Shown: piece by piece, positions 5,120 to 25,868 of the stretch
Layout: the number at the start of each line of letters is the position of its first letter
Numbering within the stretch: the stretch's first letter is position 1
From: Candidatus Hydrogenedentota bacterium
GTDB lineage: Bacteria > UBA8481 > J006
Assembly (NCBI GenBank): GCA_003697085.1
Contig: RFFU01000144.1
Coordinates: forward strand, 1-25,868
Direction of reading: 5' to 3'
Length of the DNA stretch: 25,868 bases
Position numbers and translations under genes: made by a program
The notes under the pieces: model-generated
Seen by the model: the letters and a program-made list of their open reading frames with translations, nothing else
Database searches by the model: none
What the model was told of the DNA's origin: nothing

Positions 5120-8100
5120 ATGAAACCGGTTTTACAAAAGGTGTTTTATCTCGTCCTCGCGGTTCTTCTTCCGTCATCAACGGTTCTTGCTGCGGCGGAC
5201 CGTTGGGTTTCAGGACCGCGAAAAAGATTTATTCTTGAAAGAGAGAGACTGTCCGACGGTGAAATCAGCCGTGTGGAACGAGGAAGTTTTTCTGTTGAGC
5301 CGCGCCTCTCGTACACCCGCGATTTCCGGAGGAAATCCCGCGTGGTATCGCGCATCGGACTTCGTTGGAAAGGGTTTTTCGCGGAACGATATACACTCCG
5401 TCCGAAGACGATCTTTTGGAATGTGCGGCGGAAACAAGTTCCCGAAATGATGGGAAAGACGAAAATACGTTGGAGCGCCGTGGAAGTTCGAGTGGGGAAG
5501 CGACCCGTGTATTACCAGGAATGGTCGGGCCTTTCGTTGGAAGCGGGAGATTCCTTGATCAGACTCCAACTGCCCGTTCCCCGCGCGGATTGGCGGCGGC
5601 TCTTTATTCGTTTTCTCCTCGAAGTATCCCTTCTTGACGACGAGGGGCGACTCCTTCCAGACGGTACGAAGACGCGTATCCTCGAATGGAAACCGAATTC
5701 CTCGTACTGGAATGTATCGAGGCAGAGACACCTCACACGTCCCCCGCAACCCGGACATCGGAGCCTTGTCGGGAATCGCATCCTCCTCACTCCTCCGCAT
5801 CCCGAACTGGGAGAAACCTTTACCGCCACCGCTTTTCTTGAAAACGAGGAGACGGAAACGGCTCCCGCGGATACCGGCCGTTGGTGGTATGGTTCAAGGG
5901 AGATTCGTGTCTCGCTCCCTTCTCTGGGACCGGGTATGCAGTCCCGCGTTTCAGTTTCATTTAAGGCGGAGGCGGAAACACGCACACTTCGTTTTCGGTG
6001 TTCCGATTTCGAGAAATCCACATTCGTCTCCGCCCGCACTTCCCCTCAGCTTTCCTTGAGAAGGTTGACGGTCCGTACCGCTACGACGGAGGAACCAGTT
6101 GAAGTGCTAATAACCGTCTCGAATACGGGAAGCGCCGCTTCGGAAACATCGTCCGGAGTACTGCATCTCGAGGGGGGCGGGTTCGAAAAGACGATTCTGT
6201 TGCCTCCGGTCTTTCCGCAGGAGACAACGGTCGTCTCGATTCCGTGGTTTCCCGGAGAGGTGGAAACGGGCGTGGCGGTTCTGGAGTCCGGGCGCGGCCC
6301 CTTCGTCCCCGGCGGCTTTGCACTTCTCCGAGCGGGCTTTCACAGACATCCCCCGGATCGCGAGGATCTCCGCATCACGGAAGCCTCGCTCTCCAATACC
6401 GATCTCCCCGGCGCTCCCGCCTCGTTGAAGGCAATCATCGAAAACGACGGAAACGCGGAAACGGACGCGGTGGTTACGATTCGACTTCTCGACGGCTCGA
6501 CCGGCGATACCTTTCTCGATAAACGATTGACGGTAACGGTGAAGCCCGGAAAGGCCGTCTCCGTGACGAGCCCTTATTTCCCGTTGGCGCCGGGAATCAT
6601 GGAGGGAAGAATATCCGCCGGTGATCAAAGGCGGAGTTTCTACATCGACGTTCCACCCCCTCACCTTTCGGAGCCGGGCGAGATTCGATTCGAAGCGCTT
6701 TCCCGCGAAGGGAAATCGGTTCCGCGCGGAGTGGAGATCACCGAAAGAAAGAAAGTTTTCCGATTCATTCTTCCTCTCGATACCGAGGCGAGGAGGGAAC
6801 TCGGAAGGATTCTCGAACTCCGATTTATGAAAAGGACCTGGCCTCGTGATCCGAGGAAATTGGTTCCGCAAAAACGCGAAAAAAACAAGACGGCTCTGAT
6901 GTTGGATTTACGTGGTAACCAATACCGTGACCGCCGGACCGTATCTGCCGGAGACACTGTCGTTCAATGTCCTGTTCCTCTTGAAAGATTGGGAGAGACA
7001 TTGGAGGTCAGGCTCGTTTCCGCCGGCTCCCTCCGCACATTTCTCGTCGGAGAACCGGTTCTTGTCGGACGGTTGAGAGCACGGGAACATGGCATCGTGA
7101 ACTTCGTCGAACGGAGGAACAAGGGTGTCGTGGTCGGTCTCGGCAACAGATCTCGGTTGCGGCCGATTCCCGTCGTTACGCTGGCGATCGGCTTGGGAAA
7201 CGAACCGGAGAAAACCCGCGTCGTGGCTCTCCAACCGGGGAAAGAGACGGCCGTGTTTTTCCCTCTGAGAGAAGAGGCTTGGAAGAAATGGACTTTGGTC
7301 ACGGTGCGTCTTCCGGAGTCCGTCGAGTCGGGGCCATGGTATCGTCTTTTTCCGCCGCGGGCCCAAACGCCTCCGGAATGGAATACACGAATCCATCCCG
7401 CAGAGATTCGTCCCAGAGGGGAGCGCGCTCTCCTTATCGAAGCGGGGATACGCCGAGCGGATGCCGTCGGGGTTCGATTCGCGCGCAAGAGCGACTTCGT
7501 TGATCCGGCCTTCTCGCTTTCCCTCCAACGTCCCCAAATCACAGCCGAACTTCGCAAAAGGTATCCCAGAGGCGAGACGCTCGTCTTCCTGCTCCCATCG
7601 GACTCGCCGCTCCTTCTTCTCGAACGGGATACGGTTGTCGGTGTGATCAAATCCGTCGGAGAAAAAGAGGCGGAACGGGAGGAAGGGGGGAAACGTTTTG
7701 CGCAACGAGAACCGGGGAGATGGGAGATTTTGGACCTCGGAGGCGACACGCCGGCACCGGGACACCCGATTCTGATTCGATGCCGCCGTGTGGCCGGAGA
7801 CTCGCCCCTGCCCCGCACGACGCTCTGGGCCGCCGTCAATAATCTCTTGCGAATGAGGGTTCGCTGTCCGGCTCTCGAGCCGCATACGACCTACACGTGG
7901 GGGATACCATACAGGGTGCCGCCGAGTGAGACCTTTTCGGTGATCCTCTTCGAGCGAACCGATTCCGCCGGAAAGGTCTTCGTGGCCGAGCAAAGGGAAT
8001 GGGCTGTGCGGCCGGATGCTCCTCCGGGCCGTGCGGAATGGAAATGGACGGTCCCGATAAAGGTTGGACCTTCTCCGAGCGCCCCGCCGAGCATCTTTGA

Positions 8101-20897: not shown

Positions 20898-21258
20898 AGG
20901 AGAATTCTAGCATGAAATTCCCGGGACACGAAACGAGGGCTGGGAGCGGCGGCGCGCGCGCTGACATGCGCAAGGACAAGGATACATTGGAAAGGCAAAA
21001 GGAAAAAGCCAAAAGGAAAGAGGGGAAGGGCGAGGGCAAGGGCAAAGGCAAGGGCAAGAAAAAGCGAATGGGGAAGGGAAAGGAAAAAGGGAACGGGAAG
21101 CGTGTTCTGGTAGCGGGGGCATCCTGCCTGCAGGAATCCAGCGCAGGTTCTCCAACCGGGGCCGATTGGCACTCGTGGGGGATTCCTCGTCGGGCTCCGG
21201 CCTTCTCGGAATGACATCGGGGCGGGCCACGCGTCCCCGCGCGCGCCGCTGCGCTGAT
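20898..21258. other. 361-nt spacer between addB and the M16 gene
   Basis: Gene-free spacer filled mostly by mosaic repeat copy A (described separately). An open frame at 20912-21214 with AGGAG upstream is a translation of the repeat and is not called. No clear promoter for addB is seen on the minus strand. Confidence 0.6.
20990..21216 (+). repeat. Mosaic dispersed repeat, copy A
   Basis: Modules in order: polypurine start with GGCAAAAGGAAAAAG; a 42-bp purine unit (21040-21081) built of GGGCAA-type hexamers, identical in sequence to the unit in the right-edge copy apart from one extra hexamer there; a GCGTGTTCTGGTAGCG stretch (21100-21115); a TGCCTGC-type hairpin (21115-21131); AGGTTCTCCAACC (21144-21156) lacking the TGCG that completes its hairpin in the right-edge copy; GGGGCCGATTGGCAC; and an inverted copy of the GTCATTCCGAG...GAGGAATCCCC module (about 21177-21216). 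Confidence 0.75.
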
Positions 21259-25332: not shown

Positions 25333-25446
25333 AAGGAAGGCAAAAGGGAATGGAGAAGACAGAAGGCAAAATGCAAAAGGCAAAAGGAAAAAGGGAAAAG
25401 GGAAAAAGGGAAAAAGGGAAAAAGGGAAAAGGGAAGAGGGGAATGG
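25333..25446 (+). repeat. Polypurine tract with AAAAAGGG tandem repeat, copy B
   Basis: Between 25382 and 25443 the plus strand contains no pyrimidine (62 nt). Seven GGG runs separated by 4-5 A residues form an imperfect 8-bp tandem repeat (AAAAAGGG). Before it come GGCAAAATGCAAAAGGCAAA words shared with copies A and C. Such a strand can in principle form a G-quadruplex or triplex. It lies directly upstream of the mutase gene start. Confidence 0.85.
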
Positions 25447-25461
25447 AGTGAGAACCGAGGA

Positions 25462-25584
25462 GCGCGGGCATCTTGCCTGCAGGAATCGAGCGCGGACGAA
25501 GGCATGGCATGGGGCGCAGGTTCTCCAACCTGCGGGGCCGATTGGCACCGCGGTTGTCATTCCGAGCGCCAGCGAGGAATCCCC
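25462..25584 (+). repeat. Hairpin dispersed repeat, complete copy B1 (empty intron site)
   Basis: Modules: hairpin GCGGGCA/TGCCTGC (25464-25480); GGACGAAGGCATGGCATG (25494-25511); a perfect 8-bp hairpin CGCAGGTT/AACCTGCG with loop CTCC (25515-25534); GGGGCCGATTGGCAC; and TGTCATTCCGAGCGCCAGCG...AATCCCC (25556-25584). It is the uninterrupted version of the sequence split by the intron at 25783/25784. Confidence 0.8.
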
Positions 25585-25602
25585 TCCACGCGGTATCCCG
25601 AG

Positions 25603-25783
25603 GGAAGGGCAAGGGCAAAGGCAAGGGCAAGGGCAAGAAAAAGCGAATGGGGAAGGGAAAGGGCAAAGGCAAGGGCAAGAAAAAGAAAATGGGGAAGGGA
25701 AACGAAAAAGGGAACTTGAAGCGTGTCCTGGTAGCGCAGGCATCCTGCCTGCAGAAATGCGAGCGGGACGAAGGCATGGCATG
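25603..25783 (+). repeat. Mosaic dispersed repeat, copy B2, interrupted by intron
   Basis: Two tandem purine units of 48 and 42 nt (25613-25660 and 25661-25702), differing by one GGGCAA hexamer and two bases, are followed by GAAAAAGGGAAC, GCGTGTCCTGGTAGCG, a perfect 7-bp hairpin GCAGGCA/TGCCTGC (25736-25752) and GGACGAAGGCATGGCATG (25766-25783). At that point, where copy B1 continues into its second hairpin, group II intron sequence starts. Confidence 0.8.
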
Positions 25784-25868
25784 ATAGGGGTAGGAAGGAC
25801 CGGTTCTCCCGGTCCCTCCCCCCTCCGAACCGTACGTGCGGATCTCCCGCATACGGCTCTCCGGTCAG
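25784..25868 (-). mobile_element. 3' end of a group II intron (domains V-VI), rest beyond window
   Basis: Read on the minus strand, the edge sequence runs into a domain V hairpin (25859-25827), a domain VI hairpin with stem GGACCGG/CCGGTCC, and ends CCTACCCCTAT. The adenosine in CTACCCC (complement of T25791) is the eighth base from the proposed 3' splice site at 25784, the usual branch-point place, and the end in AT fits the AY rule. The 3' exon starts CATGCCATGCC. The reverse transcriptase and 5' half lie right of the window. Comparison with copy B1 indicates insertion 3 nt after a stable hairpin, which is how class C introns choose targets. Confidence 0.88.
25827..25859 (-). ncRNA. Group II intron domain V
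   Basis: 33 nt on the minus strand. The lower stem GAGCCGTA/TACGGTTC contains the catalytic AGC triad (bases 2-4); a two-base bulge (C24, G25) follows on the 3' side; the upper stem TGCGG/CCGCA closes a small GAGAT loop. This is the diagnostic catalytic helix of group II introns; the usual length is 34 nt. Confidence 0.9.

Follow-up and report, generated by a model that had tools for sequence, protein, structure and literature searches.

The window, i.e. the whole stretch of 25,868 nt analyzed here, accounts for contig C47 in full (25868/25868 bases) of a source genome that is represented by 145 contigs, comprises 3.2 Mb and is ~95% complete. At its right edge, an Rfam search of the window detects, on the minus strand, domains 5 and 6 of a group II intron (RF00029, Intron_gpII; 25784-25861, 59.8 bits, E 1.2e-9), in agreement with the identity proposed in the preliminary description; the match runs to the last base of the intron, the complement of position 25784. 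Positions 25862-25868 (minus strand) hold intron sequence immediately upstream of domain 5 that is identical in contigs C144, C136 and C100 and is truncated by the contig end, 85 nt into the intron, with the 5' exon of this particular copy lying beyond it. On the other side of the boundary, 25733-25783 (minus strand) is the 3' exon, which represents the distal half of an intron-interrupted repeat copy, B2. The distal half of an unoccupied copy, B1, recognized by its match to B2, is located at 25461-25511 (minus strand); the two halves are identical in 41/51 positions, compared to only 5/34 in the next 34 nt across the boundary. Both include GGACGAAGGCATGGCATG, at 25494-25511 and 25766-25783, and B2 is indeed interrupted at an exact base, the repeat match ending precisely at the 3' end of the Rfam intron. 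Therefore the 25783/25784 boundary is the 3' splice point of the intron. It is neither a chance nor an assembly coincidence, given that in C144 the same intron end is joined at this very base to another copy of the repeat, followed by different DNA downstream.

The unoccupied copy B1 preserves the empty site. On the intron strand, it reads CGCAGGTT GGAG AACCTGCG CCC|CATGCCATGCC (CCC|CATGCC), that is, a perfect 8-bp hairpin (25515-25534, minus strand) followed by a CCC spacer (25512-25514, minus strand) that contributes the last exon bases (IBS1) and is found in the same place as the CCC or CTC preceding the intron in C110, C89 and C120. Comparison of B1 and B2 places the insertion point between 25511 and 25512 (minus strand), 3 nt past the end of the stem, exactly as originally described. 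A second, imperfect and unoccupied copy of the hairpin was identified at 21143-21160 (minus strand) from a repeat match at 21016-21172 together with a hairpin scan of L009. Purine-rich, low-complexity tracts, built of GGCAAA/GGGAAAA units with a 12-nt spacing, lie beside the repeat copies in the window (25335-25450 and 25602-25710), and similar tracts adjoin the repeat at several other loci of the genome.

Intron sequence is present in six further contigs of the same genome (C144, C136, C100, C120, C89 and C110), each of which is cut in or near the intron, as expected where a multi-copy element disrupts assembly; RF00029 is also matched in C136, C144 and C100. The four intron 3' ends available (C47, C144, C136 and C100) all terminate in CTAT. 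Downstream of them, C47 and C144 both continue with CATGCCATGCCTTC, i.e. the |CATGCCATGCC part of the repeat, whereas the 3' exons of C136 and C100 are CAGGTAACGG and CTATGGATCG, respectively. The ends of C47 and C144 are shared over 99 nt and then diverge, a pattern suggestive of a break in the assembly and not of a true biological terminus. The three intron 5' ends all start with GTGCG. In C110, the junction is CGCAGGTTGAAGAACCTGCG CCC|GTGCGCCC, with the intron start extending as GTGCGCCCATGAGCG; in C120, it is CGCAGGTTGGAGAACCTTCG CTC|GTGCGCCC; and in C89, TGCGGGCAAGGATGCCCGCG CCC|GTGCGCCC, where the hairpin is that of a different repeat but has the same size and spacing. Thus, the 5' exon that had been predicted, a hairpin and CCC followed by GTGYG, is found in C110 and, but for CTC, in C120, and the ends conform to the GUGYG...AY signature of group II introns. 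A hairpin directly precedes the intron in 3/3 of these 5' ends, and therefore the intron appears to read the structure and the last few exon bases, not the sequence of the hairpin. The expectation that all copies would occupy the same base of one repeat does not hold, considering the different hairpin in C89 and the divergent 3' exons of C100 and C136. We infer how the 5' and 3' ends pair into copies, and only those of C120 and C100 overlap (72 identical nt); the EBS1 of the C100 intron, GAGCGAA, pairs 7/7 with TTCGCTC of C120. Domain 5 of the copies in this genome carries an AGC triad. Contig C91 of the same genome (L035:1308-1396) contains the remnant of a different group II intron (44.4 bits) that ends in CTCTAC.

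The reverse transcriptase (RT) gene that was anticipated upstream of domain 5 has not materialized: a profile search of the contigs detected no RVT_1 domain in the source genome assembly. In C100 and C136, the sole copies that are readable into the ORF, only the first ~55 and the last ~27 residues of the RT are encoded, the ~365 residues between these termini are missing, and the left edge of the deletion, GGAGGTAA, is the same in both. This common edge in copies that reside at different sites suggests that a derivative already devoid of the RT underwent copying, presumably with the RT supplied in trans, and the lack of the RT core likewise makes movement in trans likely. At the right edge, the two deleted copies (L034:1501-2157 and L031:1-295) differ by ~36 nt, as though one were descended from the other. 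Since the interiors of the C47, C144, C89 and C110 copies are unassembled, the genome may still harbor an intact copy; with no RT gene assembled, present activity of the intron in this genome is only putative.

What, then, does the genome offer to such an element? Searched for as CGCAGGTTNNNNAACCTGCG with at most 2 mismatches, the hairpin has 110 matches in the genome, versus 1 for the reversed control. Among 34 sampled repeat hairpins, a set that includes the two occupied sites in C110 and C120, the tetranucleotide that follows the stem's GC core is GCTC in 12 and GCCC in 11, the two forms that are found beside the intron. Furthermore, C28 contains an unoccupied site that is identical to B1 over ACCTGCGCCCCATGCC. 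Two dispersed palindrome families, CGCAGGTT..AACCTGCG and GCGGGCA..TGCCCGC, are the commonest suitable sites in this genome, and so dispersed palindromic repeats provide a ready supply of landing sites. The suggestion that the repeat serves as a landing pad accordingly gains support from these counts as well as from the junctions, exon pairing and host repeats of relatives described below.

A search of 98 related genomes with the intron DNA produced a match of any kind in only five, the source genome included, of which one other contains a whole relative with a frameshifted RT. When the RT of a relative was used to scan 84,980 species genomes once, 80 loci in many phyla were obtained. The 5' ends of these introns were set by the motif GTGCG...GGTGAAAGTCC, which is blind to hairpins. 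A stem scoring >=7 and ending 0-6 nt before the intron is present at 83% of 54 such 5' junctions, compared to 5.1% of 16,549 control positions taken from these flanks; the 5' exon sequences vary between copies and the stem is kept. Alignment of the introns, with each position assessed for complementarity to the 5' exon of the respective intron, pointed to a single EBS1 position, near nt 177 of the intron, within CGAGCCTGC[EBS1]. It pairs with the last 4 exon bases in 52/57 introns (<=14 in 20 shuffles) and over 5 nt in 42/56 (shuffle maximum 10), with the proviso that some relatives, e.g. L113 and L114, are not independent and the shuffles take no account of this. No comparable complementarity exists further upstream (shifts of 2-13 from IBS1, best 7/57), and hence there is no sign of an IBS2 covarying with an EBS2. 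A second column, at nt 265 of the source intron, tracks the first base of the 3' exon, as expected of EBS3-IBS3 (Fisher p = 3.5e-5). The RTs of the relatives comprise RVT_1 and GIIM domains and lack an endonuclease domain.

The repeats of the host genomes were examined as well. In seven hosts with an intron at ATTCCSGC or a related palindrome, the palindrome is present in 32-213 copies (reversed control, 0), whereas five genomes in which the introns use other target hairpins have 1-3 copies of ATTCCSGC-type palindromes. Another target, GCGGACA..TGTCCGC, is represented by 155 copies in one host and by only 3 in the host of L134, and therefore dispersed repeats are a frequent but not an obligatory substrate.

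Could this be an ordinary class C intron that inserts after intrinsic transcription terminators? The preliminary description assigned the intron to class C, and the mode of targeting fits that assignment. Group IIC introns, such as Er.IIC of E. rectale and GsI-IIC, insert just after a DNA hairpin, with 4-5 bp of EBS1-IBS1, a one-base EBS3-IBS3, no EBS2 and an RT without an endonuclease domain (PMC10190682, PMC4424553). Judging from sequence, the targeting here is of the same IIC type and geometry, with a hairpin, a spacer, a short EBS1-IBS1, a one-base EBS3-IBS3 and no EBS2; the RTs of the relatives also lack the endonuclease domain, and the best-scoring RT references are the class C structures 7uim (206 bits) and 6ar1 (195). 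The ribozyme and the RT phylogeny, however, speak against class C. The domain 5 triad is AGC in 39/40 relatives, as opposed to CGC in group IIC (PMC7923331). In an RT tree that includes few references, taken from the structure database, and carries a long-branch warning, the class C references form a clade of their own (100/99), apart from the present family (93/88), which has an N-terminal extension of ~55 residues. The targets also differ, in that they are often dispersed palindromic repeats, the one at hand being repeated 110 times, and lack T-runs: within the 10-nt stretch spanning the junction, no T-run exceeds 3 in any of 36 reconstructed empty sites, and 24/36 contain no T-run >1 (the site in the window reads CCCCATGCC). 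The terminator interpretation of the target hairpins was rejected for want of T-runs, and on the whole we regard an ordinary class C intron at terminators as unlikely.

Another scenario, which we consider highly improbable, is that, after one insertion, the intron was copied along with the repeat by recombination between repeats. It would explain why C47 and C144 have in common both the intron end and the distal half of the repeat. Against it stand the location of C89 in a different hairpin, the differences between C120 and C110 in the loop and the last bases, the match between each relative's EBS1 and its own site, and the recurrence of the pattern in unrelated phyla, at hairpins that are likewise unrelated. 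Sequence-based retrohoming into a long IBS1 + IBS2 target, with incidental hairpins, can be all but dismissed: EBS1 and EBS3 pairings exist as in IIB introns and the AGC triad is IIB-like, but the EBS2-IBS2 pairing that defines group IIB was not found at the shifts searched upstream of IBS1, and 5' exons differ between copies with the stem preserved.

The explanation that accommodates these observations, and that we hold to be very probable, is that the window contains one copy, out of four or more in this genome, of a mobile group II intron lineage that chooses its targets by hairpin structure and uses dispersed repeats as landing sites; at the sequence level, the junctions, the enrichment of hairpins, the covariation of EBS1 and EBS3 and the dispersal of the hairpin are demonstrated. 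Extrapolating from what is established for group II introns without an endonuclease, the intron ribonucleoprotein would recognize a small hairpin formed in single-stranded DNA, probably at the replication fork. EBS1 would contribute 4-7 intron bases that pair with the exon immediately below the stem, EBS3 would contribute a single base that pairs with the start of the 3' exon, and reverse splicing would occur 0-5 nt after the stem. Nascent DNA would then prime reverse transcription, which is compatible with the lack of an endonuclease domain in the RTs of the relatives, and the RT-deleted copies would be mobilized in trans. Landing would probably be mostly intergenic; provided that the repeats are largely confined to the spaces between genes, such insertions should be of little consequence to the host.

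Several known elements resemble this lineage in part. In IIC-attC introns, the attC hairpin of integrons is a repeated, structured target (PMC7923331), and so the landing pad is of the same general kind, but those introns have a TTGT/T consensus in attC whereas here both the hairpin and IBS1 vary from host to host. The g6, U1 and U2 introns are reported to follow predicted terminators closely and to branch near class C in the RT phylogeny (PMC8919778); compared by description only, they resemble the present introns in these respects, and g6, U1 or U2 may be this lineage. The basal group of class F (Ge.ur.I1, So.us.I2, Pe.th.I2 and c-Ku.st.I1), again compared by description only, overlaps in host range (Kuenenia, Acidobacteria and deltaproteobacteria) and likewise lacks an endonuclease domain (PMC3552965); the intron types described as adjoining terminators in PMC8919778 do not include class F. 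Landing in extragenic palindromes is otherwise familiar from REP-targeting insertion sequences and from a P. putida group II intron, for which one table row from 2006 lists 2/9 copies as REP-associated; unlike the case described here, REP-targeting elements are mostly transposases (PMC1525189).

Targeting by a hairpin and short pairing has been regarded as a peculiarity of class C, and reviews mention terminators and attC as structured targets (PMC4424553). The present findings extend hairpin-directed insertion from terminators and attC to dispersed palindromic repeats, which are common in many bacterial genomes, and suggest that the targeting of hairpins does not depend on a class C ribozyme. 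If this is the case, a hairpin together with no more than 4-5 bases may determine the target choice of such introns, and REP-like repeats would acquire a role as safe havens for retroelements. A more general proposal, to which we would give roughly even chances, is that a non-IIC lineage with an AGC triad, present in many phyla, targets hairpins by short pairing while its EBS1 evolves to match the bases that come after the dispersed palindromes of each host, which would give it renewable safe sites, and that its RT-deleted copies spread in trans.

Some minor observations on the relatives can be added. CGC was found only in L116 (L116:2568-2648), where it replaces AGC in domain 5 together with a matching change of GTT to GTG on the other strand, a hint that the lineage can exchange one triad for the other. 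In L092 (3001-6917), two introns of the family are arranged head to tail: the first ends in CTAT, and the second begins at the next base with GTGCGCCTCC and has its own domain 5-6 match at 6839-6917. Finally, Acido-Lenti-1 RNAs (RF01687; L139:723-768 and L104:292-336) are located within a few kb of family introns in two unrelated hosts.
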